Shown here: piece after piece, positions 5,041 through 47,709 of the stretch
Layout of the letters: each line of letters begins with the position of its first letter
How positions within the stretch are numbered: the stretch's first letter is position 1
Assembly: GCA_017535785.1 (NCBI GenBank)
Contig: JAFXTN010000003.1
Coordinates: 1-64,000 of the forward strand
Length of the DNA: 64,000 bases
Origin: Butyrivibrio sp.
Lineage (GTDB): Bacteria > Bacillota > Clostridia > Lachnospirales > Lachnospiraceae
Direction: 5' to 3'
The notes under the pieces: generated by a model
The model's input: only the letters and a program-made list of their open reading frames with translations
What the model was told of the DNA's origin: nothing
Database searches by the model: none
Translations under genes and position numbers: made by a program

Positions 5041-5057
5041 GCGCAATTGAATTGTGC
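5041..5057 (+). promoter_or_regulatory. Operator-like dyad before the G3E GTPase genes
   Basis: GCGCAATT-G-AATTGTGC is a 17-base inverted repeat with one G-T mismatch, 15 to 31 bases after the predicted start of transcription. Its place fits a repressor site; a metal-responsive repressor is a guess from the gene content, and it does not match the Bacillus Zur box. Confidence 0.4.
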
Positions 5058-5074
5058 GGAATGGAGCAAAAGAA

Positions 5075-6388
5075 ATGACAAAGATAGATATTATTTCAGG
5101 TTTCCTTGGTGCCGGAAAGACGACACTTATAAAGAAGCTTTTAAAGGAAGCTTTGAACGGAACAAAAGTAGTTCTTATCGAGAATGAGTTCGGTGAGATC
5201 GGAATAGACGGCGGATTCTTAAAGGAATCCGGAATCGAGATAACAGAGATGAATTCAGGATGTATCTGCTGCTCACTCGTAGGAGATTTCGAGACAAGCC
5301 TTAAGCAGGTTATGGAGCAGTATTCACCTGAGAGGATCCTTATCGAGCCTTCCGGAGTTGGTAAGCTTTCAGATGTTATGAGAGCTATCCAGAATATCGC
5401 GGATGCAGATGACAATATGGAACTCAACAGTGCAGTTACAGTTGTAGACGTATCCAAGGCTAAGGTTTATATCAAGAATTTCGGTGAGTTCTTCATTAAT
5501 CAGATCGAGAATGCGGGAACTATAATCCTTACAAGAACAGACAAGGCAGATCAGGCCAAGATAGAGCAGGCGGTTGAGCTTATCAGACAGCACAATCCCA
5601 AAGCTACTATAATAACAACTCCTTTAGCTGAGATCACAGGTAAAGAGATCCTTGATACATTCGAGGGCAACAATGATCTTGAGGCAGAGCTTCTTAAGCT
5701 TGTTATGGAAGAAGAGGAGCATCACCATCACCACCATCATCATGGAAGTCACAAGATCGTTGCCGAGGATGGCTCTGTAGTTTACAGCGCACATCACGAT
5801 GACGACGATGAGGATGAAGACGAGCATTGCTGCTGCCACCATCATCACCATGATGAGGATGAGGAAGAGCACGAGCATCACTGCTGCCATCACCACCATG
5901 ATGACGATGATGAGGAAGAGCACGAGCATCACTGCCACCATCATCACCATGATGACGAGGATGAAGAAGAGCACGAGCATCACTGCTGCCATCATCACCA
6001 CGATGATGAGGATGAAGATGAGCACGAGCATCATTGCTGCCATCACCACCACGATGATGAGGATGAAGATGAGCACGAGCATCATCACCATCACCACCAT
6101 CATGACGCAGCTGACGTATTTACAAGCTGGGGAATGGAGACACCCCTTAAATATACTAAGGAAGAGATCGAGGGAATGCTTTCTAAACTTGAAGACGAGG
6201 AGACATTCGGTATCGTTCTTCGTACAAAGGGTGTTGTTCCTTCTACAGACGGTGCATGGATCGAGTTTGACTATGTTCCCGGTGAAGCTGAAGTCAGAAC
6301 AGGTTCAGCCGATGTTACAGGTAAGTTCTGCGTAATAGGTTCACAGCTCAATGAAGCTAACCTTGAGAAGTTATTCCGCAGATTATGA
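5075..6388 (+). CDS. G3E (CobW-like, COG0523) GTPase with His/Asp/Glu/Cys-rich repeat insert
   Basis: This 437-residue protein belongs to the G3E P-loop GTPases that deliver or handle transition metals such as zinc, nickel or cobalt. It has Walker A GFLGAGKTT (about 9-17) and the family metal site GCICC (Cys 63, 65, 66). Residues 216-343 are almost wholly His, Asp, Glu and Cys, built from a 17-residue unit encoded by an exact 51-bp repeat. A short CobW C-terminal domain follows. The ATG at 5075 has GGAG eight bases upstream; the longer frame from GTG 5054 lacks a site. The next gene, also G3E, starts 15 bases downstream. The insert suggests metal storage or buffering as well as transfer. Confidence 0.88.
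   Translation: MTKIDIISGFLGAGKTTLIKKLLKEALNGTKVVLIENEFGEIGIDGGFLKESGIEITEMNSGCICCSLVGDFETSLKQVMEQYSPERILIEPSGVGKLSDVMRAIQNIADADDNMELNSAVTVVDVSKAKVYIKNFGEFFINQIENAGTIILTRTDKADQAKIEQAVELIRQHNPKATIITTPLAEITGKEILDTFEGNNDLEAELLKLVMEEEEHHHHHHHHGSHKIVAEDGSVVYSAHHDDDDEDEDEHCCCHHHHHDEDEEEHEHHCCHHHHDDDDEEEHEHHCHHHHHDDEDEEEHEHHCCHHHHDDEDEDEHEHHCCHHHHDDEDEDEHEHHHHHHHHDAADVFTSWGMETPLKYTKEEIEGMLSKLEDEETFGIVLRTKGVVPSTDGAWIEFDYVPGEAEVRTGSADVTGKFCVIGSQLNEANLEKLFRRL
5819..6090 (+). repeat. 51-bp in-frame tandem repeat in the G3E GTPase gene
   Basis: The segment GAGCACGAGCAT recurs at 5867, 5918, 5969, 6020 and 6071, exactly 51 bases apart, with a diverged first copy near 5819. Each unit encodes about 17 residues of the type EHEHHCCHHHHDDDDEE. 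Silent differences between copies show the repeat is not brand new. Confidence 0.9.
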
Positions 6389-15188: not shown

Positions 15189-15734
15189 CCGTAAATATTC
15201 GGGTGGATTTACGGGAGCAAATTAAGTTTGGCGCTGCAACCCGTAAATTGCGAGGAGAGAATACGGGCCGGAATGAGTTTGGCACTGCAACCCGTAAATA
15301 GCGAGGGAAGATTACGGGCCGGAATGCGGTTTGGCACTGCAACCCGTAAAAAGTCGACAGATGCACCGCCTGAGAAGAAAAATAAGCGTAGCAGCGGTGC
15401 GGAAGTAGAGGAAAGCACCGCCTGAAAAGAAAAAAGAGCGTAGCAGCGGTGCGGAAGTAGAGGAAAGCACCGCCTGAAAAGAAAAAAGAGCATAGCGGCG
15501 GTACGAAAGTCGAGAGAAGTACCGCCTGGAGAGAAAAAAGAGCGTGGAGGCGGTGCGGGAGTAGTGAGATGCACCGCCTGAAAAGAAAAAAAAGCGTAGC
15601 GGCGGTACGAAAGTCGAGGAATGCACCGCCTGAGAAGAAAAAAGCGCGTAGCAGCGGTGCGAAAGTCGAGGAAGACACCGCTTGAGAAAAGGAACAAGCG
15701 TAGCGGCGGTAATTATTGCCGATTATATGCCGCC
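15189..15734. repeat. Array of 52-bp hairpin repeats, two sequence types
   Basis: Hairpin centres recur every 51-52 bases eleven times. Three units (centres about 15202, 15254, 15305) have arms of type CCCGTA/TACGGG. After a junction unit with one arm of each type (15343-15370), further units have arms of type GGCGGTGC/GCACCGCC. The CACCGCC arm starts at 15364, 15416, 15468, 15520, 15572, 15624 and 15676, each exactly 52 apart. Arms covary: GGCGGTAC pairs with GTACCGCC at 15497-15526, and AGCGGTG with CACCGCT at 15653-15682. Loops are 14 bases, purine-rich. Linkers are also conserved. Confidence 0.92.
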
Positions 15735-32335: not shown

Positions 32336-32482
32336 ATGAAGCACGTAAAGTCATTGGTTACAAGAAATCTTAAAGAGTCTATGAAGAAGGGCGGATGCGG
32401 CGAGTGCCAGACATCATGCCAGTCAGCTTGCAAGACTTCCTGCACAGTAGGAAACCAGAGCTGCGAGCAGCTTAGCAAATAA
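32336..32482 (+). CDS. scfA: SCIFF ranthipeptide precursor (six cysteines in forty-five residues)
   Basis: This 48-residue gene is a SCIFF precursor, a ribosomally made peptide nearly universal in Clostridia. It starts MKHVKSLVTRNLKESMKKG and has six cysteines at 21, 24, 28, 32, 36 and 43 in the C-terminal half. The linked radical SAM maturase joins Cys sulfur to non-neighbouring residues by thioether bonds. AGGAGG lies six bases before the start. A strong hairpin (32514-32537) separates it from the maturase gene. The role of mature SCIFF is linked to quorum sensing or metabolism in some clostridia, but is not settled. Confidence 0.96.
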   Translation: MKHVKSLVTRNLKESMKKGGCGECQTSCQSACKTSCTVGNQSCEQLSK

Positions 32483-32513
32483 TTTGCAAAGAATTATCGG
32501 GTAGACGTTTAAC

Positions 32514-32537
32514 GGGCAGCGACCTCGGCCGCTGCCC
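32514..32537 (+). terminator. Attenuating hairpin between SCIFF and its maturase
   Basis: GGGCAGCG (32514-32521) pairs perfectly with CGCTGCCC (32530-32537). The T tract after it is weak and broken, so it should allow partial read-through, giving much more peptide than enzyme. Confidence 0.75.
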
Positions 32538-32569
32538 TATGTTTTCGCTTACCCCTACTAGGAGATTTT

Positions 32570-34000
32570 ATGATTCACGCTTATAGGAACAACGGCTACA
32601 ACATTGTTCTTGATGTAAACAGCGGATCGGTTCACGTTGTTGATGATGTAGTTTTTGATCTTGTTACGATCGTAGAGGAGAAGCTTAAAGTAAAGTTCGG
32701 GACGGCGGCAGCACCCGAAGATGAGACAACAGTTTCAGAAGACCTTAAAGATTTTCTTTACACAGATATTTTGAAAGATACGGATATTTCATCGAGATAT
32801 TCCGAGGATGATATCAAGGAAGCTATCGAGGAGCTCTTGGAGCTCAGAGCATCACAGGTTCTTTATACGGACGATGTATATGAGAATTATGTTGATGATT
32901 TCCAGAACAGAGAGACGGTAGTTAAGGCACTTTGTCTTAACATCGCTCACGACTGCAACTTAAGATGTAAGTACTGCTTCGCTGATGAAGGCGAATATCA
33001 CGGCAGGAAGGCTCTTATGAGTGAAGAGGTCGGAAGGGCGGCACTTGATTTCCTTGTCAAGAATTCGGGAGGCCGTAGGAACCTTGAAGTAGACTTCTTT
33101 GGCGGCGAACCTCTCATGAACTGGGAAGTAGTCAAGAAGCTTGTTGAGTACGGAAGAAGCCTTGAAAAGGAATATGACAAGAACTTCCGTTTTACGCTCA
33201 CTACCAACGGTACGCTTCTCAATGATGAGATACTTGAGTTCGTCAATAAGGAAATGGGCAATATAGTTCTTTCCATTGACGGAAGAAAAGAAGTCAACGA
33301 TGCGATGCGTCCGAGACGAGGCGGTCAGGGCTGCTATGACGATATAGTTCCCAAGTACCAAAAGGTTGCTGAGAGCAGACACCAGCTCAGGTATTTCGTA
33401 AGAGGTACATTTACTCATAACAACCTCGATTTTTCAGAGGATGTCAAACATCTTGTAGAGCTTGGATTCAAGCAGATATCGGTTGAGCCCGTTGTAGCTA
33501 AGCCGGAGGATTGGTACTCATTCAAGGATGAGGATATTCCGATCATCTGTGAGGAATATGATAAGCTTGCCAAGTACTATATTGAGAGACACAAGGAAGG
33601 AAAAGGCTTTAATTTCTTCCATTTCAACATAGATCTTGAGGGCGGTCCTTGCGTAGCAAAGAGATTGTCCGGATGCGGATCGGGATGTGAGTATCTTGGA
33701 GTTACGCCATGGGGAGACCTTTATCCCTGCCATCAGTTTGTAGGTAACGAAGACTTTATCATGGGTAATGTATACGACGGTATCACAAGGAATGACATTC
33801 GCGACATGTTCAAGAAGAGCAATGTCTATTCAAGACCCGAGTGTGAAAAATGTTTTGCCAGATATTATTGCAGCGGCGGATGTGCTGCCAACGCATATAA
33901 TTTCAACGGGGATATCAATGCAACATATAAGCACGGATGTGAGCTTCAGAGAAAGCGAATTGAGTGTGCGATTATGATAAAAGCGGCTTTAGCCGAATAA
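32570..34000 (+). CDS. scfB: SCIFF maturase, radical SAM/SPASM thioether-forming enzyme
   Basis: The 476-residue enzyme has an N-terminal peptide-binding domain (about 1-110, MIHAYRNNGYNIVLDVNSGSVHVVDD), the radical SAM cluster site CNLRCKYCFA (CxxxCxxC, about 129-138), FFGGEPLMNWEVV and a C-terminal SPASM domain with Cys-rich stretches (CGSGCEYLGVTPWGDLYPCHQ, CEKCFARYYCSGGC) that hold auxiliary iron-sulfur clusters. The start has AGGAG six bases upstream. It lies directly downstream of the SCIFF gene and upstream of secDF, the usual Clostridia order, consistent with export of the mature peptide. Confidence 0.96.
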   Translation: MIHAYRNNGYNIVLDVNSGSVHVVDDVVFDLVTIVEEKLKVKFGTAAAPEDETTVSEDLKDFLYTDILKDTDISSRYSEDDIKEAIEELLELRASQVLYTDDVYENYVDDFQNRETVVKALCLNIAHDCNLRCKYCFADEGEYHGRKALMSEEVGRAALDFLVKNSGGRRNLEVDFFGGEPLMNWEVVKKLVEYGRSLEKEYDKNFRFTLTTNGTLLNDEILEFVNKEMGNIVLSIDGRKEVNDAMRPRRGGQGCYDDIVPKYQKVAESRHQLRYFVRGTFTHNNLDFSEDVKHLVELGFKQISVEPVVAKPEDWYSFKDEDIPIICEEYDKLAKYYIERHKEGKGFNFFHFNIDLEGGPCVAKRLSGCGSGCEYLGVTPWGDLYPCHQFVGNEDFIMGNVYDGITRNDIRDMFKKSNVYSRPECEKCFARYYCSGGCAANAYNFNGDINATYKHGCELQRKRIECAIMIKAALAE

Positions 34001-44703: not shown

Positions 44704-45516
44704 ATGAATGATAGTAATGTAATAGGGGCGATACTTGGCACGGAGCGAACAAATCTTTCGCTTACGATCAGCAAAGTATGTGATGGCCTTTGCAGTGCAT
44801 CAACATATAACAGATATGAAGGCGGCAAGATGCTGCCTGATAAGTTTATGCTGTCTGCGCTCCTTGAGAGAATGGGGAAAAATTCAAACAGAGTTTTGTA
44901 TACGGTAACCGATGAGGAACATAGACTTCTTGATATCAGAAAAAATATTTTGGAGTCCATTGAGAATGAAGATTCCGATAAGACAAGGCAATATCTTGAA
45001 GAGTATTCCTCTATTTCAAAAACAAGGAGCAAGAACATTCACAGGCAGCTCGAACTTGAGGTAAGTGGTGAACTGTGCCGAATGAAAAATGATACCAAAG
45101 GCGCAGTGTCTTTTTACAAGGAGGCATTTGAGCAGACTTGCAAGAAAAAGCTTGATGATATAGACAATTCGCTATATACGGTCAGAGAATTCGGACTATT
45201 GTATAAGATCGCAAGTATCAGTGATCATAATCTGCTTTTTAAGCTTGGTTATTTCCTTAAAAAGCTGAAGGATAATCATTATTTGAAGGTTGTTTATTAT
45301 GGTGAACTGATTTCGGAGCTGGTAAGTGAATCCGAGAACAGATGGATGAAGCAGGTGCAGCTTGAGTATATTGAGAGTGCATTGCAGTATAAGAGGCTTA
45401 TCAAACAAAGTAAAGGTGTGGTAAGACTTCTTGAGCTTAAGAAAAAATACGCCGGAGAGCTTAGCGAGGAAGAAGAGACAATACTTAAATTTGACGATCT
45501 TCTCGGCCGGAATTGA
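44704..45516 (+). CDS. HTH/TPR-type regulator 1, RRNPP-like
   Basis: The 270-residue protein has a divergent N-terminal helix-turn-helix (about 5-60; IGAILGTERTNLSLTISKVCDGLCSASTYNRYEGG) and a helical repeat C-terminal domain of TPR type (about 65-265). This two-part plan is that of Rgg/PlcR-like (RRNPP) regulators, which bind short exported peptides with their TPR domain. A protein only of XRE type cannot be excluded. AAGGAC lies eight bases before the start. A second, related regulator starts 17 bases after its stop. The region is visibly more A+T-rich than the flanking core genes. Confidence 0.7.
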   Translation: MNDSNVIGAILGTERTNLSLTISKVCDGLCSASTYNRYEGGKMLPDKFMLSALLERMGKNSNRVLYTVTDEEHRLLDIRKNILESIENEDSDKTRQYLEEYSSISKTRSKNIHRQLELEVSGELCRMKNDTKGAVSFYKEAFEQTCKKKLDDIDNSLYTVREFGLLYKIASISDHNLLFKLGYFLKKLKDNHYLKVVYYGELISELVSESENRWMKQVQLEYIESALQYKRLIKQSKGVVRLLELKKKYAGELSEEEETILKFDDLLGRN

Positions 45517-45532
45517 TGGGGAACAAGATGCT

Positions 45533-46447
45533 ATGAGCGTATACAAAAAATCTAAGTTATTAAAATCACATAGAGTTGAAAAGGGTTTCTCAAGAGAAAA
45601 GCTTTCCGAAGGAATCTGTGATATCACTACGCTCAAGAGATATGAAAATGAGGGGATGCTCCCAAGCGAGGATAACTACAGGCTGCTTCAGGAGAAGATG
45701 GGCGGAAGACCCGAGCAGATCATAATGTCTTATGATATGGGGCTCTTTGTTGATGGTGACAGATACGTTGAGTATGAGAATCTTTTGAATAATCAGAAGT
45801 ATGATGAGCTTCGTATGAAGATGCAAATACTTAAAGAGGGGCTGAAAAATGTAGAATCTGTTGAAAAAGAGCAGTTCCTTGCCAGGCTGGAAACTCTTAC
45901 TTATTATGACTATACAAAAGAGATGTTGGAGATCCAAGAAGGGTTATTAAAGAAATCCGTGCCTGATTATAAGGATGGAGAGTTTTCCATAACTCGTTTA
46001 TATAATGACACTGAGTTAAATCTTTTGAATGATATAGCCATAACGAATGATAAGATCGGTTGTACCGAAATGGCTGTAAAAATATTCGAAAAGCTAGATG
46101 TTTATCTTGAACAGGCTGAAGATAATAAGGACAGTATGATAGCTGTGAAGATATATTTCAATTATGCGAATACTCTTGGACTTAGCGGACAGTATGAGAA
46201 GTCTATAGAGATTTGCAAAAAAGGCATTGCGTTGGAAAAGAAAAACTCTTGTCAGGAGTTGTTATATGCATTGGTATTTAATATAGGCTGGCTATATGAT
46301 CAAATATGGATGGACAATCATGACGAGAAATATAAGAAGGCCGCCAAAGAATATGTGGGATTATCGTTGGCGCTGGCAAAATATTTTGATGAGTCTCCGA
46401 TCAATACACCAACGATAGAAGGATATTATAAAGAGAATTTCACCTAA
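45533..46447 (+). CDS. HTH/TPR-type regulator 2, RRNPP-like
   Basis: The 304-residue protein starts with a canonical XRE/Rgg helix-turn-helix (about 4-60; LLKSHRVEKGFSREKLSEGICDITTLKRYENEG) and continues with TPR-like helices (AMKIFEKLDVYLEQAE-type stretches; YFNYANTLGLSGQYEKSIEICKKGIALE; YKKAAKEYVGLSLALAKYFD). The ATG at 45533 is 11 bases after GGGG; the frame open from 45431 overlaps the previous gene and is not needed. It is convergent with the small peptide gene at 46564-46704, which shares its terminator. It is the likely peptide receptor of the pair. A+T-rich composition again suggests gain by transfer. Confidence 0.75.
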   Translation: MSVYKKSKLLKSHRVEKGFSREKLSEGICDITTLKRYENEGMLPSEDNYRLLQEKMGGRPEQIIMSYDMGLFVDGDRYVEYENLLNNQKYDELRMKMQILKEGLKNVESVEKEQFLARLETLTYYDYTKEMLEIQEGLLKKSVPDYKDGEFSITRLYNDTELNLLNDIAITNDKIGCTEMAVKIFEKLDVYLEQAEDNKDSMIAVKIYFNYANTLGLSGQYEKSIEICKKGIALEKKNSCQELLYALVFNIGWLYDQIWMDNHDEKYKKAAKEYVGLSLALAKYFDESPINTPTIEGYYKENFT

Positions 46448-46467
46448 GTTCTTTATATTACAAAATA

Positions 46468-46512
46468 AAAAACGCACCGTACATTGATAAGAATGTGTGG
46501 TGCGTTTTTTTT
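46468..46512. terminator. Bidirectional terminator between regulator 2 and the peptide gene
   Basis: AACGCACCGTACATT pairs with AATGTGTGGTGCGTT through a six-base loop, with an A run before and a T run after. It therefore serves both converging genes. Confidence 0.9.
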
Positions 46513-46563
46513 GATGTTTTTTCTCCCCCAACTATTCTATGAAAAAACATTTATTCAAATAGC

Positions 46564-46704
46564 TCAACGATGAGCGATAAGAATACAAGCTAACTCATAT
46601 TTTACCGGAGGAGGATAGATTCCTGCATCGGGCTCTTTGATTTTTGCTACGAGTCCAAGTACAAGTGTTGCAAGTAAAGCTGCTGAAACTAACATCTTTT
46701 TCAT
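46564..46704 (-). CDS. Small exported-peptide gene, candidate signalling pro-peptide
   Basis: This 46-residue frame begins MKKMLVSAALLATLVLGLVA, a basic start plus a hydrophobic core like a signal peptide, and continues KIKEPDAGIYPPPVKYELAC with a short tail ending HR. A perfect AAGGAG lies seven bases before the ATG (46717-46712), strong evidence that it is translated. It is convergent with two HTH/TPR regulators, the classic layout of RRNPP peptide pheromone systems in Firmicutes. It is not an AgrD-like peptide: no AgrB gene is near. It could instead be a small membrane or bacteriocin-like peptide. No family is recognised. Confidence 0.65.
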   Translation of the reverse strand: MKKMLVSAALLATLVLGLVAKIKEPDAGIYPPPVKYELACILIAHR

Positions 46705-46765
46705 ATCTTTTCTCCTTTCAGTGATTACTGATTAAGTATAATTATATTCATGATAATTCATATCA

Positions 46766-46809
46766 AAAGGGCGTATCGTGCAATAAAATTTGTACGAAAT
46801 ACGCCCTTT
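46766..46809. repeat. Long inverted repeat upstream of the peptide gene
   Basis: AAAGGGCGTAT (46766-46776) is the exact reverse complement of ATACGCCCTTT (46799-46809). Inside, CGTGCAA pairs with TTGTACG. It lies 60 to 105 bases upstream of the peptide start and may be an operator, a leader hairpin, or a terminator for divergent transcripts. Confidence 0.7.
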
Positions 46810-46862
46810 AAGAATATGGGGTATAGTGATAATGTTTTCATATAAAGATGGGTGAGAGGTAG

Positions 46863-46919
46863 CCAAGCGGTGATTATAATGGGGGTTAAGTCATTGCTTG
46901 GAGCTCTCATTTTTTTTGT
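46863..46919 (+). terminator. Hairpin with T tract, possible end of a small RNA
   Basis: CCAAGCGGTGA (46863-46873) pairs with TCATTGCTTGG (46891-46901) using two wobbles; a run of eight T follows at 46910-46918. No gene precedes it on this strand except across 46448, so it may terminate a small untranslated RNA. Confidence 0.5.
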
Positions 46920-46924
46920 CCTTT

Positions 46925-46957
46925 TTGAGAGTGGAAGTTTTCACTCTCTATTTTTTT
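46925..46957 (+). terminator. Second intrinsic terminator before the PPTase gene
   Basis: GAGAGTG (46927-46933) pairs with CACTCTC (46942-46948), followed by TATTTTTTTG. Confidence 0.75.
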
Positions 46958-47019
46958 GCCTGCTGTTAGGTTATACTTTAAAAAACAGATCAATGATTCT
47001 TGTATGAACGGTGATAACG

Positions 47020-47709
47020 ATGCAGATTTATATGATCGATGCATTAACTGAATTAAGTGACGAAAGATTCGAAGAAGCTTTGAAATATGTAGATGAGGCG
47101 CATAGAGATAAGATCATGCGCTTTCATTTTGATGCGGATAAAAAGAGATCTCTTGCGGGTCTTCTTTTATCTTTTTATGCGATCTCAAAGGACTTTGGGA
47201 TCGATCCTGAGGATATAACGTTTGATAAGAATAAGTACGGAAAGCCCTTTGTAAAAGGGCACGAGGATATTTTTTATAATATATCCCACTCGGGCGATCT
47301 TGTTGTATGTGCGACCTCCAAGAGCCCTGTGGGCATCGATGTTCAGGAGCATAAGAGCGCAGATTTAAAGGTTGCCGACAGATTTTTTTCCAAGGAAGAG
47401 ATAGCAGAACTCGCCGCCGTTTCAGATGTAGATCAAAAGAAAAAGCTTTTCTATGACATGTGGAGCCTTAAGGAAGCATATATAAAGTGCATAGGAATGG
47501 GACTTTCAAAACCCTTGAATGAGTTTGGAGTGGTTTTTAAGGACGGAAGATACAAGCTTTTGGAAGACGGCGTAAAGTCCGATGAATATTATTTTATAAA
47601 ATTTGACAGCGCAGAGGATTACAGTCTATGCGCATGCTCCAAAGACGGCTCTTTTCCGGAAGTGTGCAGAAAAGTGGGTTATGATGATATAATAGCTTTA
47701 TATCATTAA
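47020..47709 (+). CDS. Sfp-type 4'-phosphopantetheinyl transferase
   Basis: The 229-residue protein has the Sfp-family motifs: SLAGLLLSFYAIS, KYGKPFV with FYNISHSGDLVVCATS, then VGIDVQEHK (metal-binding Asp) and FYDMWSLKEAYIKCIGMGL (WxxKEA). Such enzymes transfer phosphopantetheine to carrier proteins of peptide and polyketide synthetases or fatty acid synthesis. No synthetase gene is near, so the target is elsewhere. ATG 47020 is preferred over GTG 47011. The gene follows two terminators and lies in the insert between yugP and rsmB. Confidence 0.9.
   Translation: MQIYMIDALTELSDERFEEALKYVDEAHRDKIMRFHFDADKKRSLAGLLLSFYAISKDFGIDPEDITFDKNKYGKPFVKGHEDIFYNISHSGDLVVCATSKSPVGIDVQEHKSADLKVADRFFSKEEIAELAAVSDVDQKKKLFYDMWSLKEAYIKCIGMGLSKPLNEFGVVFKDGRYKLLEDGVKSDEYYFIKFDSAEDYSLCACSKDGSFPEVCRKVGYDDIIALYH

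Follow-up and report, generated by a model that had tools for sequence, protein, structure and literature searches.

A peptide-signalling locus of the RRNPP type lies in the 64,000-nucleotide stretch of DNA from a rumen strain of Butyrivibrio sp. analysed here (contig JAFXTN010000003.1, positions 1 to 64,000; hereafter the window). The locus is unusual in its receptor, which is probably split into two modules, in the convergent orientation of its peptide gene, in a palindrome of fixed geometry and in a variable biosynthetic slot. We consider it likely that it encodes a PlcR-PapR-like pheromone system, in which two proteins with helix-turn-helix (HTH) and tetratricopeptide repeat (TPR) or similar helical parts, R1 and R2, would probably form a heterodimeric receptor that controls an exchangeable biosynthetic slot as well as the gene of its own peptide. 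The initial annotation of the window had proposed that two tandem regulators converge on a 46-residue minus-strand gene preceded by an AAGGAG site and that the arrangement serves RRNPP peptide signalling. All of these open reading frames (ORFs) and the site were found in place, and the signalling interpretation gains support from the family of R2, the conservation of the peptide and the co-occurrence of the two genes, with peptide binding itself being presumed.

R1 and R2 are separated by 16 bases on the plus strand, and 116 bases lie between the stop of R2 and the end of the peptide gene, with a hairpin and T-runs in this gap, in agreement with the shared terminator that had been predicted. 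Orthologous loci were compared in five genomes, namely that of the window and its four named relatives X503, INlla21, Tb.RUG.513 and LB2008, of which the last two carry nonribosomal peptide synthetase (NRPS) and polyketide synthase (PKS) genes beside the locus. The features are as follows:

44704..45516, plus strand: R1, first-module HTH and helical-repeat regulator, 270 amino acids (aa)
45533..46447, plus strand: R2, second-module HTH and TPR (RNPP_C) regulator, 304 aa, PlcR-like
46467..46510, both strands: shared terminator hairpin of R2 and the peptide gene, a 19-pair stem followed by a T-run on the plus strand; the minus-strand T-run was recognised by inspection
46564..46704, minus strand: candidate pre-pheromone gene, 46 aa, C-terminus ACILIAHR
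46712..46717, minus strand: AAGGAG, ribosome-binding site of the peptide gene
46741..46746, minus strand: TATAAT, invariant -10-like box; 17 nt upstream of it stands a poor hexamer, CTTTTG or CTTTTA
46766..46809, both strands: 44-bp palindrome, candidate receptor operator
46822..46833, plus strand: TATAGTGATAAT, candidate divergent -10 of a putative promoter facing the biosynthetic slot
46845..46917, plus strand: strong terminator-like hairpin with T8 before the next gene (-31.3 kcal/mol, z -4.56 for 46845-46925)
47011..47709, plus strand: 4'-phosphopantetheinyl transferase (PPTase; Pfam AASDHPPT_N and ACPS), with a relative as the last gene of the NRPS/PKS run in both LB2008 and Tb.RUG.513

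By profile, sequence and predicted fold, R2 is a regulator of the RNPP_C/PlcR type. The RNPP_C model scores 27.7 bits against a Pfam cut-off of 26.5, while HTH_3 (19.4 bits, cut-off 23) and TPR_8 (18.7 bits, cut-off 25.7) stay below threshold. When a profile of the five R2 orthologs was compared with solved structures, PlcR (2qfc) was matched at E 3.7e-7 over residues 8-271, with designed TPR proteins next (E 6e-4 or weaker). An AlphaFold2 prediction for R2, built from 5 sequences, has a mean pLDDT of 65.9 with a good TPR part, and its two best Foldseek matches are structures of PlcR with the PapR peptide (2qfc, E 2.5e-6; 3u3w, E 6.2e-6). With an alignment to PlcR that includes the HTH part, R2 is unlike the HTH-less, phosphatase-type Rap receptors; Phr/Rap membership was rejected, the peptide too matching TIGR04429 (Phr_nterm) only at E 0.15 and 12.6 bits (cut-off 25). 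Both R1 and R2 fall within the length of 250-500 aa expected of RRNPP receptors, and an NCBIfam scan of R1, R2 and the peptide gave nothing above cut-off. The earlier claim of two TPR-type regulators thus holds for R2, whereas R1, whose HTH_3 score of 16.4 bits is also below the cut-off of 23, is unproven as a receptor-type regulator when taken alone and owes its assignment to the module tree described below.

The peptide gene product begins with MKK and a hydrophobic core and resembles a signal peptide by composition, so that a small propeptide of the Sec-exported kind, as expected of RRNPP systems, adjoins the receptor in all five genomes. Orthologs of R2 (E <= 1.1e-180) and of the peptide (E <= 3.3e-21) occur in the same five of 79 Butyrivibrio genomes, which do not count as independent tests because they are related; the next-best peptide match in the 79 genomes (E 0.0025) is restricted to residues 1-20 and falls inside a 428-aa frame. 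A convergent peptide gene follows R2 in each of the four named relatives, and none of the five genomes with orthologous regulators lacks it. G078, a sixth genome, encodes two more remote relatives of R2 (E 2.6e-17 and 3.6e-11), and at neither of them does the rule given below detect a convergent peptide gene. Across the five peptide orthologs MKKMLV and, near the end, CIL are invariant, and the middle is variable. The ratio of nonsynonymous to synonymous change in the peptide gene is 0.16 against Tb.RUG.513 and 0.34 against LB2008 (43-46 shared codons), which points to purifying selection and speaks for translation of the peptide, as had been supposed.

The relationship of R1 to R2 became apparent from more distant relatives. 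Searches with R1 and R2 in the genus (61 genomes, E <= 0.001) and in the family (299 genomes, E <= 1e-12; six with a match, including the window's own) returned proteins of about 580-890 aa, and all 12 of these long, fused relatives proved to contain two HTH modules when scanned with an HTH profile for which the N-termini of seven tandem pairs, R1 and R2 among them, and of six single-module relatives were used. The module tree comprised 44 modules; X503 and INlla21 were excluded from it as near-copies, and G240, G280:C18 (L095, where the receptor is in pieces) and G038 (where the contig ends within the receptor) were left out of both the tree and the set of 27 receptors discussed below. In this tree R1 groups only with first modules (7 rows, support 99/95; 8 rows with G280, 97/90) and R2 only with second modules (8 rows, 100/98). 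The labels 'first' and 'second' can be placed on the tree with 4 and 3 changes, against a shuffled mean of 14.5, and tandem and fused forms are intermixed in genome G326. R1-type genes pair with first and R2-type genes with second modules in five of the seven tandem pairs; several rows of the tree are long branches. On sequence grounds, R1-R2 is therefore best read as a two-module HTH-TPR receptor of about 600 aa in split form, and the two proteins probably act as one heterodimeric receptor. One relative (L090 11967-14639) has 890 aa, with two HTH modules and a long extra C-terminal part, and a single Butyrivibrio genome (G025) contains six receptor relatives (L037, L040, L041, L042, L044, L045), several of them near exporter or RiPP-like genes (ribosomally synthesised and post-translationally modified peptides; named by eye).

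Convergent peptide genes are also found at distant receptors. We counted a gene as such if it had a ribosome site, encoded 25-75 aa with a basic start and a hydrophobic core, and had its stop between 60 bases inside and 400 bases beyond the receptor stop; the rule was not blind, similar rules having been applied earlier to most of these loci. Fourteen of the 27 receptors have such a gene, including all five orthologs, seven of the 16 distant two-module receptors (G326a, G272a, G272b, G019, G053, G326b, G102) and two of the six distant single-module ones (G001a, G001b). Among 188 other ORFs of at least 200 aa from the same loci and three further stretches, which include R1-position genes and ORFs from near-identical loci, only one has it. 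The pairing of regulator and peptide thus stands for all orthologs and extends to a part of the distant receptors. Some of the receptors without such a gene adjoin exporter or RiPP-like genes (by eye). A link between the fused G019 receptor and NRPS genes about 9 kb away is not claimed, as other genes intervene.

In all five genomes a spacing of exactly 19 nt separates the 44-bp palindrome from the invariant TATAAT that follows it towards the peptide gene, whereas TATAAT and the ATG are 36 nt apart in three genomes and 44 nt in two. On the opposite side a motif like TATAGTGATAAT is largely conserved in the five. The half-site GGGCGTATNNTGCAAT has exactly one zero-mismatch match in each of four genomes, by which a dispersed repeat is ruled out at this stringency. 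With up to two mismatches there is no excess over the backward pattern in the genome of the window (4 versus 9) or in X503 (10 versus 11). As a bare inverted repeat the palindrome is unexceptional in the window, 15 of 22 arm matches being equalled or exceeded at no fewer than 11 other listed centres; the case for an operator rests on conservation and geometry, and these fit an activator site beside the -35 position. The T8 hairpin at 46845-46917 is common to the window, X503 and INlla21 and, by alignment, is not present in Tb.RUG.513 and LB2008. Since this terminator-like structure precedes the PPTase gene, the system may at present act, in the lineage of the window, on the peptide gene, on a short RNA or on targets elsewhere. 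Lying after the divergent promoter motif, the hairpin could itself yield a short RNA or act as an insulating terminator; an Rfam scan of the whole window returned no match at the gathering threshold.

The side of the palindrome opposite the peptide gene differs between genomes. LB2008 has there a one-strand NRPS/PKS cluster of about 30 kb, which may already be known, running from accDA through thioesterase II, NRPS (C-A-PCP), PKS (KS-AT), NRPS (C-A-PCP twice), PKS (KS-ACP), NRPS (C-A-methyltransferase-PCP-reductase), an exporter, FabG/FabF/FabZ-like genes and an ABC transporter to the PPTase gene at its end (domains of six proteins by Pfam, remaining genes named by eye); three opposite-strand ORFs and then PGM and rsmB follow. 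In Tb.RUG.513, contig C67 ends in accDA right after the peptide gene and overlaps the start of C15 by exactly 127 bases, and C15 continues with about 55 kb of different genes from accDA to PPTase. The NRPS/PKS proteins among them have 28-41% identity to those of LB2008 in the first-ranked BLAST matches shown (some second-ranked ones down to 25%), and the PPTase (57%), PGM and rsmB close the region. In the window, X503 and INlla21, the palindrome is followed, within a few hundred bases, by PPTase, PGM and rsmB, and no cluster is found there. A search for condensation domains at E <= 1e-5 found none in X503, INlla21 or the 90.8% complete genome of the window, and a ketoacyl synthase search found one 415-aa protein each in X503 and INlla21 and none in that of the window. 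Twenty genomes were compared at the PGM gene, and four of them have slot marker genes: G026, G035 and G016 carry ABC genes (by eye) and PPTase at the slot without R1-R2, and G033 has an accDA relative (84%) but neither R1/R2 matches nor the palindrome, so that accDA is not tied to the cassette. In fifteen others we saw none of these markers in the roughly 9 kb upstream of PGM, except for a 32% PGM-type match in G013, and the contig of G039 was too short for the comparison. By synteny, the cassette of R1, R2, peptide gene and palindrome thus appears to frame a site of cluster gain, loss or replacement, and its position suggests that it may regulate the NRPS/PKS clusters.

The cassette also seems to move between relatives. 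Compared with X503, the window is 98.4-100% identical in the 250-base bins of 45000-46749, 96.0% and 95.2% in the edge bins and 76-91% outside; compared with INlla21, identity is 91-99% over 44750-46749 and 75-94% outside. Such profiles point to an exchange of the R1-R2-peptide region. The likely recombination tract, 44750-46916 in the window, spans R1, R2, the peptide gene, the palindrome and the hairpin at 95-100% identity to X503. R1, R2 and the peptide gene are intact in the window, X503 and INlla21. Between the window and INlla21, R2 has 23 synonymous and 2 nonsynonymous changes (peptide gene 2 and 0); therefore, R2 appears to be maintained without a cluster here. The changes relative to X503 (R2, 1 synonymous and 2 nonsynonymous; peptide gene, 0 and 1) are too few to tell.

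The mechanism that we propose would start with export of the 46-aa pre-peptide by Sec and its trimming to a short C-terminal pheromone around ACILIAHR. This pheromone would be re-imported by an oligopeptide permease (three SBP_bac_5, Opp-type proteins are encoded in the genome of the window) and bound inside the cell by a receptor consisting of R1 and R2 as partner proteins, most likely acting together as a heterodimer. The loaded receptor would then bind the palindrome and turn on the peptide-gene promoter with its poor -35, resulting in autoinduction, and would also switch on the divergent promoter facing the slot, and with it the PPTase gene or, in relatives, the NRPS/PKS cluster that ends in it. 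In the lineage of the window, where the cluster is absent, the signalling cassette would have been kept and exchanged between relatives. A wider proposal, for which we see about an even chance, is that Lachnospiraceae possess a class of two-module receptors, encoded in tandem or as a double-length chain and often accompanied by a convergent peptide gene, and that in Butyrivibrio these serve as an exchangeable control head before swapped, unrelated NRPS/PKS clusters, a head that would also spread and be kept without a cluster so that such strains listen and signal.

Several observations weigh against these interpretations. The R2 model is modest, with residues 1-89 mostly under pLDDT 50, and it superimposes on PlcR with a TM of only about 0.5 and an rmsd of 9-11; among its other 32 Foldseek matches (E <= 0.001) most are unrelated TPR proteins. 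For R1, the Pfam scan listed no TPR model, the predicted structure has a pLDDT of 61.5, and Foldseek gave no match with E <= 0.001 for it; a sequence search of the PDB did not identify R1 either, giving two designed TPR proteins and weak, unrelated matches. The main first-module branch has a support of only 94/93 and also contains two single-module rows, and four of the 19 first modules (G272a, G272b, G025a, G025e) fall outside it. Under the rule, a convergent peptide gene is lacking at thirteen of the 22 distant receptors. Half-sites with up to two mismatches exceed the backward pattern in INlla21 (15 versus 6) and LB2008 (27 versus 7), which may contain weaker extra half-sites. Finally, three of the five genomes keep the system without a cluster at the slot, and the argument for cluster control is one of position.

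One might argue that, within an RRNPP-type system, R1 and R2 each form a homodimer of their own and play opposite or otherwise different parts (activator, repressor or orphan, for example). One receptor gene with one pheromone gene is the usual arrangement, according to PMC9765709, the profile alignment of R1 and R2 is confined to the HTH part (57 columns), the single-module relatives G001a and G001b have convergent peptide genes of their own, and in two of the seven tandem pairs (G272a, G272b) the upstream gene is not among the first modules. However, every long relative combines two HTHs, and the other five tandem pairs reproduce the pairing of first and second modules; we find separate homodimers somewhat unlikely. 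The palindrome, in turn, could be a terminator or leader structure and not an operator, as the A- and T-tracts in its long arms give it the look of a terminator, its ungapped score is commonplace in the window, and LB2008 has a near-perfect second copy in the R2/peptide gap (L033 5930-5975), where the window has the terminator. This is unlikely in our view, given that the palindrome lies between divergent genes and keeps its 19 nt to TATAAT in all five genomes while the spacing from TATAAT to ATG varies.

It could also be that the small gene encodes an effector, such as a bacteriocin-like or membrane peptide, which R1/R2 control and do not bind. The hydrophobic N-terminus, the Cys-bearing tail and the exporter or RiPP-like genes seen by eye near several receptor relatives would agree with this, but the ORF lists of the window show, by eye, no biosynthesis, exporter or immunity gene directly adjoining, the ends of the peptide are conserved and its middle is variable, and other receptors also have convergent peptide genes whose tails differ, a pattern to be expected if each receptor has its own pheromone. 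We hold an effector to be quite improbable. We give even less credence to a neutral remnant, in which the regulators and the peptide gene would be decaying leftovers of a lost cluster. The empty slot in the window, X503 and INlla21, where condensation domains were not detected either, and the few, unskewed changes between the window and X503 would be in line with decay; the intact state of all three genes, the synonymous excess relative to INlla21 and the near-identity to X503 between divergent flanks, that is, a recent exchange, argue against it. A maintained pheromone system with R1 and R2 as receptor partners accordingly remains the reading that we prefer.

Elsewhere in the window, a CobW-like GTPase gene (5054-6388; named by eye) has a 51-base tandem repeat encoding His/Cys/Asp/Glu-rich segments, perhaps a metal store, and tandem repeats of 51-52 bases with 83-90% matches (15225-15710) lie between pilT-like and ComM-like genes (names by eye). 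At 32336-34000 a 48-aa Cys-rich peptide gene is followed by a radical-SAM maturase-like gene, a pair that we take to be of the SCIFF-like, radical-SAM type.

In a search of the openly accessible literature we found neither a description of RRNPP-type signalling in Butyrivibrio or Lachnospiraceae nor an RRNPP report tying a heterodimer to the TPR part. The locus gives a concrete candidate ligand, receptor, operator and output for intracellular peptide signalling in Butyrivibrio. If true, a receptor composed of two dissimilar HTH-TPR modules would add a new architecture to a family that has been studied intensively, and it would test how a pheromone is read by asymmetric receptors. The placing of one conserved control cassette before interchangeable clusters would likewise show how NRPS/PKS clusters can be swapped without rewiring and, if the control is true, would provide a means of switching silent natural-product genes of anaerobes.

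The PlcR-PapR system of the Bacillus cereus group combines a palindromic operator with an exported peptide gene adjacent to the receptor gene. R2 aligns with PlcR over HTH and TPR and also has a small exported peptide gene and a palindromic candidate operator nearby; in contrast, here there are two partner receptor genes (a double-length chain in relatives) and not one, the peptide gene is convergent on the opposite strand, and neither Pfam (at E <= 1) nor NCBIfam (above cut-off) has a family that the peptide matches. The candidates of RRNPP_detector (PMC10075063) are similar in having a receptor of 250-500 aa, an adjoining Sec-type propeptide and a cluster nearby, but the cluster-linked families named in the accessible part of that paper are without Lachnospiraceae, and because of its 250-500 aa limit the program would skip the fused receptors of about 600 aa. 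Qsr/QssR of solventogenic Clostridium (PMC7376267, PMC7206700) is, as far as its available description goes, likewise a clostridial RRNPP receptor with a small peptide. NprR-NprX, for which PMC3325205 describes control of the kurstakin NRPS locus (a correction on the krsABC mutant exists, PMC5127582), resembles our case in joining an RRNPP receptor to a nonribosomal peptide locus that includes a PPTase gene. Here, however, the receptor genes stand at the slot itself, before clusters that differ between two strains and that they would control.

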